64,000 bases of DNA from Methanosarcina barkeri str. Wiesmoor (GCF_000969985.1 NZ_CP009526.1:1-64000), one strand, 5' to 3'. Shown: positions 36,048 to 55,964, numbered from the stretch's first letter. Made by a program: numbers and translations. Notes: generated by a model not told the origin, from the letters alone.

Positions 36048-36305
36048 ATGGGTTGTAAACCGATAACGTTTCGTAATGTTAATCCTGATACTTTTAATTG
36101 TATGAAGAAAAAGCTTCAGGGATACGGAATCCATGTCCCAGAGGGTTATAGGGGAGAACTTTCTGGCAAAGGAATTACTGCGAATTTCGAATGGGACGGA
36201 CAGTCCAATCTTACCATTACAATTACGGAAAAACCCTTTATCGTCAGTTGTGAAATCGCGGCTCAGAAAATAAAAAGTTTTATAAGAGCTTGCCATGGCT
36301 CGTAA
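36048..36305 (+). CDS. Small hypothetical protein, tandem paralogue 1
   Basis: An 85-residue protein with a good AGGAGGA ribosome site. It shares with the next gene the pattern FRNVxPxxFxCMKKKLxxYGI, then GxLxGxGIxAxFxWDGxxNLxIxIxEKP and a closing Cys-containing helix. The pattern suggests a compact alpha/beta fold. I recognise no family. It is placed downstream of the GlcD/GlcF operon, but a repeat array and 264 bp separate them. Confidence 0.75.
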   Translation: MGCKPITFRNVNPDTFNCMKKKLQGYGIHVPEGYRGELSGKGITANFEWDGQSNLTITITEKPFIVSCEIAAQKIKSFIRACHGS

Positions 36306-36408: not shown

Positions 36409-36690
36409 ATGGGCGAAAGGAAACTGGATACTGAGGGCTGCCAGGGGATTAAATTCAGAAATGTAACTCCTGAAGTATTTTCCTGTATGAAGAAAAAACT
36501 TGAGAGCTATGGAATTGAAGTTTCATCCGGAAATTCCGGTGTGCTTGAAGGAAACGGAATAGTTGCCCATTTTAGCTGGGACGGTGAGGCAAACCTGTCA
36601 ATTGAGATCAAAGAAAGACCTCTTGAAACTTACTGCGGGCAGGTAAGTGGAAAATTGAGGACTTTCTGGCGTGAGTGTCAGGGTTTATGA
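36409..36690 (+). CDS. Small hypothetical protein, tandem paralogue 2
   Basis: A 93-residue protein with about half its residues shared with the preceding gene (FRNVTPEVFSCMKKKLESYGI, FSWDGEANLSIEIKERP). Conserved Cys (SCMKK) and the C-terminal CxG/REC region occur in both. Clearly a local duplication. Ends 80 bp before MITE copy B. Function unknown. Confidence 0.75.
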   Translation: MGERKLDTEGCQGIKFRNVTPEVFSCMKKKLESYGIEVSSGNSGVLEGNGIVAHFSWDGEANLSIEIKERPLETYCGQVSGKLRTFWRECQGL

Positions 36691-36769
36691 AGGTGAATCC
36701 AATCCATGCTTACATCAGGATTACGTGTGTTTTTTACAACTGGTTTAAAAAAGAATAATTGATTGATTT

Positions 36770-36906
36770 GGTAGTGTGCATGATTTTTTTGTAAAATTAT
36801 AAATCTCATAAAGTAATTGGGTAAAAGATTTTGTATCAGAAGATCAATTTTTACCAGAGTATCGAAAAATTTGACTTCGAATTTACAGCAAATTCGTGAC
36901 ACTGCC
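36770..36906. mobile_element. MITE-like element, family 1, copy B
   Basis: A 137-bp element with ends GGTAGTGT and ACACTGCC and an interior matching copies A and C. It lies 6 bp beyond the stop codon of the HamB-like helicase gene. Confidence 0.85.
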
Positions 36907-36912
36907 TAAAAA

Positions 36913-39900
36913 TTAGGCAATTCCTTCTAATACCTTCCAAATCTTATAATAATCCTCACCAATTTTTCCCATTGATTCTGTCCATAATCTCGAATCATGG
37001 CTTGCTAATTCTGTACGCAAATCATTCAAAGATTTTTCATGTATTACTGAAAACATGTTTTTTGACAAGCTAAGTGATGCACTGCGTGGCACTCCTAATA
37101 AACGAAGTGCAATTGCTTCATCTGTGTCTACGCCATAATAAACTCTTGCAGGCAAATTTCGAAGTGTTGCTTGGTCTGTTTCAGATAATTTATCGAAATT
37201 ATCTCCAAAAGTCATTGTTTGTAAAGCAGCGAGGCCCCATGCGGCGGTTTGTGTAAGTTTTCCAAAAATATTTCTACAACAATTACTCATAGCTTTTGTG
37301 GAATCAATAGCATTTCCTTGCTTGTCGTTAGCAAAATATTTGTCAGACATTTCTTTCAGGCTAAGTCCATTTACCCAATCAGTGACCATATCTGCTAAAC
37401 GACTTCCATCTTTCCCCCAACCACCAGTAGCAGCTTCTAAATTTTCACGTAATTCGGAAACATCTAACAATATCCCCATCAGCTTCCTCAAATCTTTTTT
37501 ATCTTTAAATAATTCATTTGGATCCCATATATTTTCTCCAATACGTTCGTCACGCAGTCTTTTTAAAGTATTTCTTATTGTTTCTAACGAAAAACCAGTA
37601 CTATCAACCAACTTAAGTGGAGCATTTCCCGATAAATTATCAGCATATGCTCTAACTCCAGCAATAAGATATCTAGCATTATCAGGATTATTATTTCTTA
37701 ATGTTTCAAACCCTAAAGTACCCCGTAAAATTAACTCAATTTGCTTGGTAAATTCAGTAGAATTTCCAATTTGACGATATGAATGAACTATGTATTGCAA
37801 AAAAGCCGACCATTCTGGGAGATAGGACAATTTTTGTAATTCTAAAATTTGTCCTTCACTTATAGCTGTTTCTACCATTTTTATAAGTGTTGAATTTAGA
37901 GACAAAACTTGTTTATCAACAAACGTCTTTAACTTTACAGCATTTTTTTCATTCGTCGCAGCTAATGCAACAATTCCTACGCTCCCTTGATCTACTCTCC
38001 CTGCTCGGCCAACTAAATTCCAAAATTCTTCTGGTTGCATTTCTTTACCATATGGATATCTATAGTCAGCCATAACTACAGCTGTTACGGGAAAATTTAC
38101 TCCTTGAGCAATCGTTGTAGTTGCAACAAGAATTTTAATATGTCCTGATTCAAATAACCATTCCATTAACCATTTAGTTTCATCCGACAGACCAGAGTGA
38201 TGCACACCAATTCCATATTCCAGCAAATCACATAATGGGAAATCATCACCAAATTCACTTTGAATATAACGTTTTACAAGTTTCACATCTTCAGGTAAAT
38301 CCGTAATCTTATTATCAGGGTGTTTAAAACTATTTGCGAGTGACCATGTATGTTGAATTTTTCCCACCAAGACTATAACAGATCCTCTTTCTTTCAAAAC
38401 TTGTGCAGTTACTGCGGCTAGTTTACTAGCGTTATTATTTATTTGTGACCAATTATATCCAAGTGGACGATTGTTACTTAACTGTAGTTTTTCAGGGATA
38501 TGTAGTGTATTTCTTGTTGTGTGAAGAGTTTCAAGATATAAGGAATAGTTACCGTTATTACTTTTTTTATGGCGACTTAGTGCTATAGCTCTATCATTTG
38601 GGTTCCAATCCACACTCATCTCAATCGATTTGTTACTATCGGAAGAAAGCCATTTAGATATTTGTGTAGCGTTATTAATAAAAGGAGTTAATAGCAGAAA
38701 CTGGGAATCACGACATTCTCTGTTAATAGTAGCAAGCAGCAATTCTAGTTTTATTCCTCTTACTGGTTGAGAGAGGTTATGTGCTTCGTCGACAATTACT
38801 AAAGATAAAGGCCGATTTATTTTTTGTTCCCATCCTCCACGAAGCATTAAATCCAATTTTTCAGGTGTAGTAACCAGCACTCGGAAATAAGAAGATTTTT
38901 CCACATCAGTAAGCAGACCAGCTTCAAGACTATCGATTTCAAGAGCAGGGCTGATTTTCTCCACGTTAATTTTTAGGGGATTAAAATCTTTTCTTAGACG
39001 TGTACAAATTTGATTTACGAGTGCATGAGTAGGGGCGAGATATGCTATCCATCCATTTTCAAATTGATTAAGTGCTTGCAGGATTCGGAATTCAGCAATA
39101 AACGTTTTTCCACTAGATGTAGGCAAATTAATTACAATCGAACGTGGACTTGAACTGCGTAATCCTTCTTCTCGTAAAGTATACCTTTGAGGCGGCAACA
39201 TTTCAAAAATTGGTTTACTTCGTTCTCTTGATACAAGGGTTTCAACAAATTGAGTTACTTGATCATTAACAGCTCTTGTTATAGTCCATATACAATTATC
39301 AACTAGCTGTTGAGATGTACACTCTAATAATCGAGTTAAATTATCTAGTTCAACTAGTTCTGCTCTAGTACATGCGTTTAGTGCAGAATCAAATTGTGAT
39401 TCTAGTTGTTGTCTTATATCGTAGTTTCCTTCTACTTGACCTTGAGTTGTATAAATCGCTAACAATTCCGCAGCTTTTGCTAAATGATATAATGCTACCA
39501 ATTCCCAAGCAGCAGTTCTTGAATAATCACCTTCTGATTCAAGATAATCTTTTTCATATTCATTTTGATGTTTTCTTAAATCTACAACTCTCTCGTGAAC
39601 TCTATCTAAGTCATTCCATCCATCTTTTCTAATAATAGACAACCACACATCAATAATAGTAGCAAATGTTCTTTTATTCCAATATGGTGAATTAATTGGT
39701 AGATCTATTGGAGGCAGCTCTCTAAGCAACCTTGATGCATCTGCTCCACGATCTCCTAAAACGCCAAAACAAGATAAGCGCAAATATTCTTTTCCAGCTT
39801 CAATAGGATCCTCTGGCTTGGGAAGTACTCTTAATAATTGAAATAGCTCTGCACTGATTTTACGAAGACTATTGATTTGCTCATCATCGTCTAATAAATC

Positions 39901-40068
39901 AATCAAAGCCAATTCTAAAGAATCAATTATCAATAAAAAGTTTGAGTTCTCTTCTTCGACTGATGAATAATCCAATTTTAGTGATTCGTGAAGTAATCGT
40001 CTGGAAGACTCTATATGGGCTTGTTTTAAAGAGTCATCATCTATTAAATTCATTACCCACGATTTCAT
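36913..40068 (-). CDS. hamB: Hachiman system helicase HamB-like
   Basis: A 1051-residue superfamily-2 helicase. A helical N-terminal domain (about 1-280) precedes the helicase core: Walker A LPTSSGKT near residue 322, AYLAPTHALVNQI (motif Ia), VTTPEKLDLML (Ib), VIVDEAHN (DEAH box, 427-430), ILVATTTIAQGVNFP (motif V) and VGRAGRVDQG (motif VI). A long C-terminal helical region follows. Its ATG overlaps the stop of the upstream DUF1837 nuclease by 4 bp. This nuclease-helicase pair and its tight coupling match Hachiman, where HamB surveys DNA and restrains HamA. AT-rich codon use suggests horizontal acquisition. Confidence 0.85.
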   Translation of the reverse strand: MKSWVMNLIDDDSLKQAHIESSRRLLHESLKLDYSSVEEENSNFLLIIDSLELALIDLLDDDEQINSLRKISAELFQLLRVLPKPEDPIEAGKEYLRLSCFGVLGDRGADASRLLRELPPIDLPINSPYWNKRTFATIIDVWLSIIRKDGWNDLDRVHERVVDLRKHQNEYEKDYLESEGDYSRTAAWELVALYHLAKAAELLAIYTTQGQVEGNYDIRQQLESQFDSALNACTRAELVELDNLTRLLECTSQQLVDNCIWTITRAVNDQVTQFVETLVSRERSKPIFEMLPPQRYTLREEGLRSSSPRSIVINLPTSSGKTFIAEFRILQALNQFENGWIAYLAPTHALVNQICTRLRKDFNPLKINVEKISPALEIDSLEAGLLTDVEKSSYFRVLVTTPEKLDLMLRGGWEQKINRPLSLVIVDEAHNLSQPVRGIKLELLLATINRECRDSQFLLLTPFINNATQISKWLSSDSNKSIEMSVDWNPNDRAIALSRHKKSNNGNYSLYLETLHTTRNTLHIPEKLQLSNNRPLGYNWSQINNNASKLAAVTAQVLKERGSVIVLVGKIQHTWSLANSFKHPDNKITDLPEDVKLVKRYIQSEFGDDFPLCDLLEYGIGVHHSGLSDETKWLMEWLFESGHIKILVATTTIAQGVNFPVTAVVMADYRYPYGKEMQPEEFWNLVGRAGRVDQGSVGIVALAATNEKNAVKLKTFVDKQVLSLNSTLIKMVETAISEGQILELQKLSYLPEWSAFLQYIVHSYRQIGNSTEFTKQIELILRGTLGFETLRNNNPDNARYLIAGVRAYADNLSGNAPLKLVDSTGFSLETIRNTLKRLRDERIGENIWDPNELFKDKKDLRKLMGILLDVSELRENLEAATGGWGKDGSRLADMVTDWVNGLSLKEMSDKYFANDKQGNAIDSTKAMSNCCRNIFGKLTQTAAWGLAALQTMTFGDNFDKLSETDQATLRNLPARVYYGVDTDEAIALRLLGVPRSASLSLSKNMFSVIHEKSLNDLRTELASHDSRLWTESMGKIGEDYYKIWKVLEGIA

Positions 40069-40853
40069 GTTTTACCTTCCAATATGATTATTGGCCAATC
40101 AGCAATAGAACAAGGACAATACCATGCATTTAATTTAGCCCTCGTAATTGAAGAGTCTATCTTTTTTGATAGAGCATTTGCTCGATTAATTAGATCTTTT
40201 TCTTGGGGATCTATATCTCTCATCAGTGCACCATACAATATTACAGACTTCTCTTTCGATTTAAGATATGTTTCAACAGCTTCTTGAAAATATGGCCACA
40301 TTTCTGTATTTTTGCAGCGAATGTGAAGCCACTTAATTAAACTTAGACGAATTGAACGGGTTCCATAAATTATCTCTAATTGATTAATTATACCATGCCG
40401 GCCAGTCATCACATTAGGAGGAGTTTTTTTTTCAGTTGAAGTTTTTACTTCTCCAAAAAAAAATTGTGTTGTTTCTCCATCTTTATAAAACCCAACTAAA
40501 TCAGCGCCAGGGAGACTTGCTTTTGGCGTTCTTTTGTCACGTTCTGAATTCCAAGGCCATTTTATATTATATTCATCTTTTAAAGCGCATTCAACAAAAG
40601 CTTCTCCGATTTCCCAAGGTTTTATATGAGAATTATTTGAGCTCAATAATTTAATTAATGTATCTGATGCCATTTCCGTTGTAGCAAGTTCTTCTAAATC
40701 TCGACGGAAGCTTTCGGCATGTTCAGCATCTTTTACACGGTCATAAACTACCTCGCTCAAAAAAGATTTGAAGTCTTCTGGATTAGATATATTTTTACCT
40801 TTATAGCTGACATGATTCACATGGCCTTGGTAAGTGGTATCATAATTAATCAT
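40065..40853 (-). CDS. hamA: Hachiman system nuclease HamA-like (DUF1837)
   Basis: A 262-residue protein. A restriction-like nuclease core is visible: E84 in WEIGEAFVE, D118 in LPGADLVGF, E135 and K137 in FFFGEVKTST, i.e. the E...D...ExK pattern of PD-(D/E)xK enzymes and of HamA (DUF1837). The distal part has a conserved GRHGIINQLE helix. In Hachiman, HamA degrades DNA when phage infection releases it from HamB. It precedes hamB with a 4-bp overlap. All four catalytic positions look intact, so the system may be functional. AbpA-type proteins are an alternative label within the same DUF. Confidence 0.83.
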   Translation of the reverse strand: MINYDTTYQGHVNHVSYKGKNISNPEDFKSFLSEVVYDRVKDAEHAESFRRDLEELATTEMASDTLIKLLSSNNSHIKPWEIGEAFVECALKDEYNIKWPWNSERDKRTPKASLPGADLVGFYKDGETTQFFFGEVKTSTEKKTPPNVMTGRHGIINQLEIIYGTRSIRLSLIKWLHIRCKNTEMWPYFQEAVETYLKSKEKSVILYGALMRDIDPQEKDLINRANALSKKIDSSITRAKLNAWYCPCSIADWPIIILEGKT

Positions 40854-41629
40854 AATACAGCAGCTCCAACGTCGGATAACAAAGTATTTTTGAACATCTA
40901 TTCAACTATATGTGACAATCAGGAAGCAAATAACCTGGATTTATCTATCTAAAAGTTAAGATTCGTTTTTCGACTTTCAGATTATAATCATATCTTCATT
41001 TAGATTTTAAGAAACTATTTTTTTCTGTATACTATTTAACTCTTTTTAAATATCTCTAAACTATTGTCATTTTTCTCAAAATTAGAGCAATATTCATGCG
41101 TCTTCGGTTAAGTGAGGAATCGTGACAATTACGTCAATTTCCTCAACATTTGTCAAATATTTTAATAAATTACGAGCTGTAACAGGGTATCGATTTCATG
41201 TAAACAGGCCAAAATTTAAGTCTGGCTTCTAATGCAAAATCGATAGCTTTCAGGCAAGAAAATTCCTTAACCGAGGACCAATGGAGCAATATTCTAAGAA
41301 ATTGTAATAATTGTAATTATAGAACAAAGAGTAGGTAGACTAAAATAAAGTTGTAATGTTTGTAGTGCAATAACTTTCGTATTTTTCTAAATATACCCGA
41401 TCTATGCTTTTTTAAACTCAGTTATTCTAACTCACATAGGAATACTCAAGTTGTGATTTATTACTTCTATCAAACGTAAAAAATAGTAAAAACACATAGG
41501 AAGAATTAATGGATATTTTTACACAGATTTTGCAACAAAGTCTATGTATCACAAATTAAAATTTACAGAACTTTCAGTATACTAATTGATTTACTATAAT
41601 TTCTACACGAACAACTTTACCTTTGTCGC
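40854..41629. other. AT-rich gene-free region upstream of hamA
   Basis: About 780 bp without a supported gene, strongly AT-rich like the Hachiman genes. It probably holds the hamA promoter (AT-rich stretches near 40960-41050). No inverted repeats, tRNA or clear attachment site are visible at the outer edge, so the boundary of the acquired segment is not defined here. Confidence 0.5.
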
Positions 41630-43948
41630 TTACTTTTTCCTTTTTTCCTTTCTTCTTATCAAACACTTATGAGCATTCCCCACAAGGTCAAGTCTTCCTG
41701 CCTTCTCGAGAGCTTCGTATACAAGCTCGTAATTTGCAGGGTTCCTGTAGTGCATAAGAGCTCTCTGCATGGCCTTTTCTTTCTTGCCTTTTGCAACGTA
41801 TACTTTTTTGCCTGTGAACGGGTCCAGTCCTGTATAATACATGCATGTCGATACGGTCATAGGTGTTGGGGTGAAGTCCTGTACCTGTTCGGTATAGCCT
41901 CCATGGTCTCGCACATACTCCGCCATCTCTATCATATCTTCAAGGGTACAGCCCGGATGCCCTGACATCAGGTAGTTTACAATGTACTGTTCTTTGCCGC
42001 ACTTCCGGTTGAGCTCTGTAAATTTCTGGGTAAATTTCTCGTAGACTTCCCTGCCTGGCTTACACATTACATTTGTGACCTGCCTCGAAAAGTGTTCAGG
42101 TGCGATTCTTAATTGTCCGCTGATATGGTAGGCGCAAAGTTCTCCGAGGTACTCTTCATCCTTAAGAGCCAGGTCATAACGTACCCCGTAACCTGTAAAG
42201 ACATGCCTAACTCCTGGAAGTTCGCGCAGGCGGCGTAAGAGTTCAAGCAGCTTTTTATGGCTGGTATCCAGAGCAGGGCAAATGCGAGGATAAAGGCAGG
42301 ATTTGTCCAGACAGGCTCCTTTTTTTCCCCAGGTTTTACACTCCATGCCGTACATGTTTGCACTTGGGCCGCCAACTCCGTTTATAATGCCCTTGAAATC
42401 AGGTTTTTCTGTGAGCTTTTTTGCTTCACGCAGGACAGATTCGATACTGCGGCTTGCAATCATGCGCCCCTGATGTTCTGTAATTGCACAGAAAGCACAG
42501 CCTCCAAAGCATCCCCTGTGCGTTGTCAGGGAGAATTTTACCATTTCCAGGGCAGGAACCGGTTCAGTATAGGAAGGATGGGTTTCACCAGTGAACGGCA
42601 GTTCATACACATGGTCCATTTCAGCCTCTGTAAGAAGGCGCATTGGCATGTTCTGCACGATTACGGTTTTCGGGTGAGGCTGAATAATCCCTTTTCCAGT
42701 AACAGGGTTCTGTTCCGCGAAATATATACGAAAAGCTTTTGCAAAGGCTGTTTTATCCTGAGAAACTTCTGAAAAAGAAGGAATTTCGAGATATCGCTTT
42801 AAAAATGTGGCTGCATTCTCAGCTATTTTCTCGTCTTTTTGTCCTGACTTTTCCTTTTCCGGTATTTCCTGTTCCGATTTTTCCTTTTCCGGTATTCCCT
42901 GTTCCGATTTTTCCTTTTTCAGTACTTCCTTTTCTGATTTTTCCTGTTCTTTTTTATTCGACCTATTATCTGACTTTTCAGCTCTTTTTTTGAGCTCCTT
43001 CCAGGCTTTAACTTCCATCTTCCATACTGTGCCGGGGACATCTCTGATATTTCTGATATCTTCCCCGGCCTGCAGTCTTTTTGCAATTTCTACGATCTGA
43101 AGCTCTCCCATACCGTAGACTATGAGGTCAGCAGGCGCGTCAGCCAGAATGGATTGCCTGACCTTATCTGAAAGATAATCATAATGAGCAAAGCGACGTA
43201 AGGAAGCCTCAATGCCCCCAAGCACTATAGGCACTTCAGGAAAAGCCTCTTTTATTCTGTTCGAGTAAATTATCACGGCGCGGTTAGGACGAAGCCCTGT
43301 TTTTCCTCCAGGGGAATAAGCATCCTTATTCCGCGGCTTCAGGCCTGGGGTCAGGTTGCTGACCATAGAATCGGTATTTCCTGCACTTACGGAAAAAAAG
43401 AGTCTTGGCTTTCCAAGTTTTTTGAAATCTTCAGGGCTGTCCCAGCGCGGTTGGGCGATTACTCCTACTCTAAAACCGGCATCTTCAAGAACTCTTCCTA
43501 TTATTGCCGTGCCGAAACTGGAGTGGTCTACATAGGCGTCCCCAGAAATCAGAATAATATCAAGCTCTTCCCAGCCGCGAGCTTTTACTTCTTCAAGGCT
43601 CATTGGAAGAAATTTCGATGCAGGTATGCGGGAAGAAACGGATTTTCTTTTTCTTTCTCTCTTCTTGTGTTTAGGTTCAGATCCTTTCCCAGGTTTTTTT
43701 CCCGCTTTTGTCGGTAATTTTACTTTTGAGAGCTTTACTTCTGAGAACTTTCCTTCGGCTTTTTTTCCTTCGGCTTTTTCAGGTTTTATCCCTGATTTTA
43801 CCCTGAGTTCCACTCCATCTTGCGTTTTTTGTCTTAATTCAGCTTTTTTTGGAACAAAAGAACCGGTTTTTCTGCTCGGTCTTTCTTTATTCCGCTTTTC
43901 AGGTTTTAAGTTTTTATTCTTTTTTGAAATCGCTGTATCTTTGGCCAT
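41630..43948 (-). CDS. YgiQ-family radical SAM protein
   Basis: A 772-residue member of the UPF0313/YgiQ family. Radical SAM cysteines are in THRGCFGGCAFCAITEHQGR. A B12-like N-terminal domain begins at FLPMSLEEVKARGWEELDIILISGDAYVDHSSFG. The first ~110 residues are very Lys-rich and low complexity, and an insert with repeated EKEKSEQ(E/G)IP units lies between the domains (about residues 335-375). Both are probably disordered. The reaction catalysed by YgiQ proteins is not established to my knowledge. A C-terminal Lys/Arg tail (RRKEKRKK) follows. Confidence 0.88.
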   Translation of the reverse strand: MAKDTAISKKNKNLKPEKRNKERPSRKTGSFVPKKAELRQKTQDGVELRVKSGIKPEKAEGKKAEGKFSEVKLSKVKLPTKAGKKPGKGSEPKHKKRERKRKSVSSRIPASKFLPMSLEEVKARGWEELDIILISGDAYVDHSSFGTAIIGRVLEDAGFRVGVIAQPRWDSPEDFKKLGKPRLFFSVSAGNTDSMVSNLTPGLKPRNKDAYSPGGKTGLRPNRAVIIYSNRIKEAFPEVPIVLGGIEASLRRFAHYDYLSDKVRQSILADAPADLIVYGMGELQIVEIAKRLQAGEDIRNIRDVPGTVWKMEVKAWKELKKRAEKSDNRSNKKEQEKSEKEVLKKEKSEQGIPEKEKSEQEIPEKEKSGQKDEKIAENAATFLKRYLEIPSFSEVSQDKTAFAKAFRIYFAEQNPVTGKGIIQPHPKTVIVQNMPMRLLTEAEMDHVYELPFTGETHPSYTEPVPALEMVKFSLTTHRGCFGGCAFCAITEHQGRMIASRSIESVLREAKKLTEKPDFKGIINGVGGPSANMYGMECKTWGKKGACLDKSCLYPRICPALDTSHKKLLELLRRLRELPGVRHVFTGYGVRYDLALKDEEYLGELCAYHISGQLRIAPEHFSRQVTNVMCKPGREVYEKFTQKFTELNRKCGKEQYIVNYLMSGHPGCTLEDMIEMAEYVRDHGGYTEQVQDFTPTPMTVSTCMYYTGLDPFTGKKVYVAKGKKEKAMQRALMHYRNPANYELVYEALEKAGRLDLVGNAHKCLIRRKEKRKK

Positions 43949-48080: not shown

Positions 48081-49558
<1,478 letters not shown>

Positions 49559-49769
49559 AAGCAAAAAAACTCACCACCCAGATGCCGATAAACCGAACAA
49601 AATCCTCACCATTTAAATCATCGATCATAATCTAATGATCAATTCTAACTCATCAAATGCACCCGGAAAGTAAATTTTCGGGGAAGGGCGGATTGCCTGC
49701 GTTGACACGCAGGTACATGAAGTCATGTATAAGTGCTGTATACTGGACGCTTTCTGGACCTGGTTAGGA
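49559..49769 (+). other. 16S-23S spacer without tRNA-Ala
   Basis: A spacer of about 210 nt. No tRNA-like cloverleaf or TGC anticodon arm is visible, unlike most Euryarchaeota, where tRNA-Ala sits here. The left arm of the 23S processing stem (49717-49746) pairs with 52691-52720. Confidence 0.75.
49717..49746 (+). promoter_or_regulatory. Left arm of the 23S rRNA processing stem
   Basis: ATGAAGTCATGTATAAGTGC is complementary, with a few mismatches, to 52691-52720 (GCACTGTACATGACTTCAT). Pairing continues inward after a bulge (CTGGACC with GGTCCAG), the layout of an archaeal bulge-helix-bulge cut by the splicing endonuclease. Confidence 0.75.
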
Positions 49770-52675
<2,906 letters not shown>

Positions 52676-52690
52676 CCGGTCCAGGCGAAA

Positions 52691-52720
52691 TTCAGTATGC
52701 AGCACTGTACATGACTTCAT
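52691..52720 (+). promoter_or_regulatory. Right arm of the 23S rRNA processing stem
   Basis: Complementary to 49717-49746 as described there. It lies between 23S and 5S. Confidence 0.75.
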
Positions 52721-52745
52721 CTTTCCACAATCCCATTTATAGGTA

Positions 52746-52872
52746 GAGTTTGGCGGCCATAGCGGCAGTGTAACTCCTGTACCCATCCCGAACACAGTAG
52801 ATAAGCCTGCCCGCGTTCCTTACTGTACTGAAGTGTGCGAGCCTTCGGGAACTCTGGATCGTTGCCATACTC
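52746..52872 (+). rRNA. rrf: 5S ribosomal RNA
   Basis: Conserved core ACTCCTGTACCCATCCCGAA and GATAAGCCTGCC. The closing stem pairs GAGT-TTGGC with GCCA-TACTC. It lies 70 nt after 23S and ends the operon; T-rich DNA (CTGTTTTTTG, about 52902) follows as a terminator. Confidence 0.96.
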
Positions 52873-55394: not shown

Positions 55395-55520
55395 AAAAAC
55401 TCATCTTATTTTTTGGTCATGTTCTATGTAAAAATTTAAAAACCGATTGCCTTGAGCTAAATGTTTATATATTAGAAATTCCTTTAATTGAAGCTACACG
55501 AGCAATACGTGATCAAGAAT

Positions 55521-55592
55521 GCCAAGATGGCGGAGCGGCTACGCAATCGCCTGCAGAGCGATTCCATTCCGGTTCGAATCCGGATCTTGGCT
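55521..55592 (+). tRNA. tRNA-Cys (GCA), copy 1
   Basis: The acceptor stem pairs GCCAAGA with TCTTGGC. The anticodon stem ATCGC/GCGAT encloses loop CTGCAGA, giving anticodon GCA. The T arm CCGGTTCGAATCCGG is perfect. No CCA is encoded. A TATA box (TTTATATATTAG) lies about 55 bp upstream. Confidence 0.95.
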
Positions 55593-55657
55593 TCTTCTTT
55601 AAACAATTTATTGCTCTAAAATTATTTTATATAGTATCCCACACGAATTTGCATAAT

Positions 55658-55729
55658 GCCAAGATGGCGGAGCGGCTACGCAATCGCCTGCAGAGCGATT
55701 CCATTCCGGTTCGAATCCGGATCTTGGCT
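55658..55729 (+). tRNA. tRNA-Cys (GCA), copy 2
   Basis: Identical in sequence to copy 1 over the whole 72 nt; the flanks differ. A TATA-like TTTTATATAGTA lies about 30 bp upstream, so it has its own promoter. The duplication covers just the tRNA. Confidence 0.95.
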
Positions 55730-55964
55730 TTCCTTTAAAAACCAATCTTTTTTCCAGAACTTTTAATTTTCTGATTCTCACGGTCTATTCTTAAATTTTT
55801 TTCGTTTGGTCTGCTTAAGTAAAGTGACCACGTAAATGAATTATCATATAAGTGGATCACATAAGTAAATCGTATGCCTGCTTCTGATAGTAATTTATAG
55901 CTTACTTTGATTCAGGTTTAATTCCGAACCTTAATTTTATATTAGAGAAGACTGATTTTTGAGC

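Follow-up and report, generated by a model that had tools for sequence, protein, structure and literature searches.

Does this archaeal chromosome of the Methanosarcina type carry a Hachiman anti-phage system, and by which route was it obtained? From the 64-kb window (the whole stretch of DNA that was analysed, 64,000 nucleotides), a sequence-only reading had singled out a nuclease gene and a helicase gene next to a mobile repeat, and had proposed an archaeal Hachiman with an intact active site, acquired horizontally. The analysis described here retains most of this picture and modifies the family assignment. With a probability of about three in four, nuclease and helicase form a complex of the HamAB type and represent the PDC-M23 lineage, which would be a deeply branching sister of Hachiman; the genes would have come from anaerobic bacteria.

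A coupled gene pair and its family

The locus is built around the following features, the nuclease gene being first and the helicase gene second:

40065..40853, minus strand: HamA-like nuclease of the PDC-M23A family, 262 aa (PADLOC PDLC04527, AF2 model, match to HamA 8vx9_A)
36913..40068, minus strand: HamB-like Ski2-type DEAH helicase of the PDC-M23B family, 1051 aa (PADLOC PDLC04531, AF2, Foldseek)
40065..40068, minus strand: ATGA overlap coupling the nuclease and helicase genes, shared by roughly half of the 84 related loci

Both ORFs start with ATG. The 4-bp overlap, the DEAH motif of the helicase (residues 427-430) and the residues E84, D118, E135 and K137 of the 262-aa protein, the last two forming E135xK137, were all confirmed as the sequence-only reading had described them. 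The claim of an intact active site holds as well: D118, E135 and K137 are in place and conserved among 79 relatives. Indeed, E84, D118 and K137 are invariant in this alignment, and position 135 is occupied by E in 76 relatives and by Q in the other three. A degraded remnant was ruled out, both frames being open and the motifs intact. A QVK sequence replaces the active-site EVK in three PDC-M23A relatives (L145, L150 and L161).

PDC-M23 is an unnamed candidate family of PADLOC-DB 2.0.0 (models PDLC04527-04532), "PDC" standing for phage defence candidate (PMC11514479). Among the PADLOC-DB profiles, PDC-M23A (PDLC04527) matches the nuclease with an E-value of 8.6e-100 and 331 bits over residues 4-260 of 262, and PDC-M23B (PDLC04531) matches the helicase with an E-value of 0 and 1396 bits over residues 2-1049 of 1051. 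A match that spans both proteins fully, in a family where the helicase adjoins PDC-M23A at 84 of 87 loci (the 4-bp overlap recurring exactly in roughly half of these 84), is far above chance. PDC-M23A is moreover the sole PADLOC-DB match of the nuclease, for which the HamA1 and HamA2 profiles gave no match; the Pfam HamA profile (PF08878) reaches 15.5 bits, under its gathering cut-off of 25, and an NCBIfam scan of the 262-aa protein returned zero models. The helicase is matched by the HamB profiles of PADLOC-DB, with 222 bits at best. On the basis of these scores, the pair belongs by sequence to PDC-M23, and its link to HamA is marginal. It is consequently filed as PDC-M23, Hachiman-like and not canonical Hachiman, since one defining sequence criterion of Hachiman gave a negative result. 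A literature search found no paper naming PDC-M23, no experiment on any of its members and no mechanism.

More sensitive comparisons give the following picture of this marginal link. An hhalign comparison of the nuclease with HamA gives a probability of 22%, a phmmer search of the PDB an E-value of 0.63, and a sequence-profile search for solved relatives yielded none except HamA at an E-value of 0.5. The Pfam HamA profile is touched at E < 0.1 by 5 of the 79 relatives and PADLOC HamA1 by 3 of them (best E-value 2.8e-4); in the reverse direction, a canonical Vibrio HamA touches PDC-M23A at 2.2e-4. When the profile of the 79 relatives is aligned with Vibrio HamA, the GE, D and ExK elements coincide, and in these profile alignments E84, D118, E135 and K137 superpose on conserved HamA residues.

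Predicted structures and the helicase tree

The AF2 model of the nuclease (pLDDT 91.6, pTM 0.89) superposes on HamA. With a second aligner, the first rank is taken by HamA 8vx9_A (Z 17.1, rmsd 3.9, 236 residues aligned), a HamA mutant structure scores Z 14.8 and the HamA domain of AbpA Z 13.5, and the best unrelated fold reaches Z 7.1. In plain Foldseek, HamA is absent from the top 50 for this model and nothing falls under an E-value of 0.001; the fold match therefore rests on the second aligner, with its wide gap to unrelated folds.

For the helicase (AF2 model, pLDDT 89.1), the first three Foldseek ranks are three HamB chains, with an E-value of 7.7e-29 for 8vx9_B versus 5.9e-23 for Hel308. 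HamB aligns with the model across residues 1-1051 with Z 25-27, and Hel308 gives Z 25.1. By Z alone the two would be tied for this predicted structure; rank, coverage and the tree decide in favour of HamB. The alignments of Hel308, POLQ and nearly all Brr2 structures begin at about residue 254, and among the matches listed the HamB chains are almost alone in covering the N-terminal 250 or so residues. A counterpart of the N-terminal helical domain (NAH) is found as helices at 4-300 of the model. In E. coli this domain of HamB contacts HamA, and it is missing from related Ski2 helicases (PMC12278908). On the nuclease side, helices 25-56, loop 96-116 and helices 155-180 of the model probably correspond, by their position, to the three stretches through which HamA contacts HamB, and the conserved FPWPxGRD sequence falls in loop 96-116. 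As for the C-terminal barrel of E. coli HamB, no strand is present beyond residue 703 of the helicase model, and the alignment stops at HamB residue 1089 of 1174.

In the helicase tree, the 17 PDC-M23B entries form a single clade (100), lying inside a set (98) together with HamB, AbpB and a rhizobial lineage. This set excludes both the Hel308 of the source genome and a second Ski2-like helicase. Given the long branches, the tree fits PDC-M23 either as sister to HamB or as nested in it. The rhizobial sequences, from Rhizobium and Ensifer plasmids (L252:1740-5712 and L253:1686-5691), constitute a third lineage whose helicase matches PDC-M23B with 591 bits. It is preceded by a 284-286-aa protein for which PADLOC and Pfam scans gave no match, and in which a GFDGW...QVKGT motif is reminiscent of D...(E/Q)xK.

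These data allow the proposal of the sequence-only reading, a canonical Hachiman made of a DUF1837 HamA and a HamB, to be weighed. The architecture and the folds of HamAB are indeed there: the two-gene layout, the D...ExK motif and both folds are shared, the HamB profile matches the helicase, and HamA profiles weakly touch 3 to 5 of the 79 relatives. The assignment nevertheless does not hold by sequence, where PDC-M23 is the best family for both proteins (331 bits versus no HamA1 or HamA2 match for the nuclease, 1396 versus 222 bits for the helicase), the nuclease misses the Pfam HamA cut-off and PDC-M23B stands as a separate clade. Canonical Hachiman is thus considered unlikely, and membership of the PDC-M23 lineage is the preferred reading.

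Horizontal gain at a genus-wide insertion site

A genome scan detected 107 PDC-M23A relatives, of which 80 were retained; they come from numerous phyla of bacteria and from a few archaea, and four more were found on viral contigs. In a phylum sample of 295 genomes, PDC-M23B is present in 5 and canonical HamA above cut-off in 8. Within the genus, PDC-M23A occurs in one genome out of 31, that of the source itself. The source helicase falls with Thermodesulfobacteriota, grouping (100) with Desulfuromonadales, Syntrophobacteraceae and one Pseudomonadota bin at 60-64% identity, and the other archaeal copies are placed elsewhere in the tree. This bacterial grouping and the scattering of the archaeal copies support a bacterial donor and repeated transfers into archaea. 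The pair is also AT-rich, as first noticed, with a GC3 of 0.21-0.22 versus 0.36-0.47 in the adjoining genes. Rarity in the genus, foreign composition and bacterial neighbours in the tree all agree with the horizontal acquisition that had been proposed. Elsewhere in the window, a G+C-rich stretch is explained by a complete archaeal rRNA operon (16S, 23S, 5S) at 48081-52870, and two identical tRNA-Cys genes (76/76 bases) at 55518-55593 and 55655-55730 have starts 137 bp apart.

The site in which the pair resides comprises:

36409..36690, plus strand: left hotspot anchor, a conserved small ORF of 93 aa, adjoining the site genus-wide
36770..36906, plus strand: older dispersed MITE of 137 bp at the left edge of the module, with imperfect 8-bp terminal inverted repeats
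36907..41468, no strand assigned: module segment lacking a counterpart at the corresponding site of the other genomes compared within the genus (blastn, sites of 27 relatives)
41092..41283, plus strand: dispersed MITE, the younger of the two, bounded by terminal inverted repeats and lying upstream of the nuclease gene (genome copies)
41630..43948, minus strand: right hotspot anchor, a radical SAM protein of 772 aa, in 30 of 31 genus genomes (Radical_SAM_N, 434 bits, Pfam)

The right edge of the module lies at about 41436 to 41469, and between the left MITE and this edge only the 41092-41283 repeat matches the sites of the 27 relatives by blastn. The comparison with related genomes thus gave a segment that is lacking at this place in the relatives and is foreign in composition. 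In these 27 relatives (L065-L092, site 36690-41630), the gap from anchor to anchor is empty, about 80-110 bp, in some ten cases; in the others it is filled with unrelated cargo that ranges from about 1 kb to about 23 kb, the closest relative (G029) having 9 kb. Conserved anchors with differing cargo make this a genus-wide insertion hotspot. One such cargo, in G023 (L075:670-1602), encodes a 310-aa protein with an adenylate/guanylate-cyclase domain that matches Pycsar cyclase profiles at 8.7e-24; another, in G020 (L070:4134-9190), appears by eye to be a nitrogenase-type cluster, with NifH-like and NifK-like N-termini. The left anchor is adjacent to a further small ORF (36048-36305), alike in sequence and also kept across the genus; a Pfam scan of the two gave no match above cut-off.

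The 137-bp MITE, which starts with GGTAGTGT and ends with ACACTGCC, does stop 6 bp short of the helicase stop codon at 36913. It has 33 matches in the source genome, the full-length copies being 72-80% identical to the one at 36770-36906, and copies are found throughout the genus; no clear target-site duplication was seen at its ends. In four relatives (G024, G019, G006 and G010), the same MITE is contiguous with the 93-aa ORF, hamAB-like genes are absent and other sequence begins a few bases past its end. The MITE is therefore older at this site than the module. The suggestion that this element helped to bring in or to bound the module survives in its second half: it marks the left edge, and its role as carrier is rejected on account of these four genomes. 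It could instead have provided homology for cassette exchange. The MITE at 41092-41283, whose two ends precede the nuclease gene by about 240 and 430 bp, is flanked by an apparent 11-bp target-site duplication, GAGCAATATTC, and has about 25-30 further genome copies; it is regarded as the younger of the two because its copies are up to 99% identical.

The insertion data bear on a second explanation, in which a Hel308/Ski2-type DNA-repair helicase and a repair nuclease would act together with no role in defence. The nearness of the helicase core to Hel308, POLQ and Brr2 speaks for it, but the occurrence in a single genome of the 31, the foreign composition and the hotspot insertion are a poor fit to housekeeping functions, the source genome has its own Hel308 (C2:1526904), and relatives of the pair are found in restriction-modification operons and on viral contigs. 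This explanation is accordingly held to be improbable compared with a HamAB-type complex of PDC-M23.

Proposed mode of action and relation to known systems

Related pairs are frequently accompanied by type I restriction-modification genes. Raw Pfam counts give Methylase_S for 16 and HSDR_N for 11 of 106 immediate neighbours, and with iterated profiles hsd genes were counted in the flanks of about 34 of the 84 loci, always on the same strand as the pair; this last count is approximate, the hsdS, hsdR and hsdM profiles having drifted (in L133 two models hit one ORF), so the Pfam counts are the firmer ones. At several loci (e.g. L106, L125, L135, L146 and L178), hsdS is immediately upstream and hsdR immediately downstream. 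That the pair might serve type I restriction-modification systems as an accessory module, functional only with HsdMSR, as these associations would suggest, is hardly probable in view of the majority of loci where hsd genes are not adjacent, including the source locus, near which none was found and whose genome has its HsdR homologues far away. A broader and quite tentative idea is that PDC-M23 might be an independent deep HamAB branch, commonly installed in type I restriction-modification operons unlike known Hachiman, which might act on DNA ends made by HsdR, or when HsdR fails, as a second layer that sacrifices the cell; in that case the archaeal copy might have branched off as a stand-alone form.

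For the HamAB-type complex itself, a mode of action can be proposed by analogy with E. coli HamAB. Gene structure, family membership, both fold matches, active-site conservation, co-occurrence of the two genes, horizontal gain and the insertion site come from the present data, and the assembly of the complex, its trigger, the destruction of DNA and the protection against viruses are all extrapolated from the E. coli system. The N-terminal helical domain of the helicase would bind the nuclease, and as long as the duplex DNA is intact the helicase would keep its partner inactive. Once a free end or a single strand of DNA, produced by viral replication or damage, enters the helicase, the nuclease would be released or activated and would use its D...ExK metal site to degrade the DNA of both cell and virus.

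A candidate family found in numerous phyla of bacteria and in several groups of archaea is in this way tied to a mechanism known atomically, and its function becomes directly testable. The locus also illustrates that annotation with Pfam HamA and NCBIfam profiles misses distant HamA relatives found by structure, and that the genus-wide insertion hotspot of this Methanosarcina-type lineage holds a putative defence module.

Among known systems, the Hel308/Ski2 helicases share the helicase core with the source protein; they have no counterpart of its first 250 or so residues and no paired nuclease gene. AbpAB of E. coli K-12 (PDB 8ZUE) is closer, with a HamA-type domain and a related helicase. 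AbpA combines an N-terminal Cap4 nuclease with an inactive HamA domain (PMC10732053), whereas the source 262-aa protein is a HamA-type domain alone, with its site intact and Cap4 absent. Hachiman HamAB of E. coli ECOR31 (PDB 8VX9, PMC12278908) resembles the pair in the HamA fold, the D...ExK motif, the Ski2-like helicase with an N-terminal helical domain and the two-gene operon. It differs by an identity of 11-17%, by the HamA Pfam cut-off that the source nuclease misses, by the conserved FPWPxGRD of the source family, absent from the HamA sequences aligned, and by the C-terminal barrel of E. coli HamB, which the source helicase model does not have. With PDC-M23, finally, both proteins match end to end, the gene order is identical and no difference was found, so the source pair is a member of this family.
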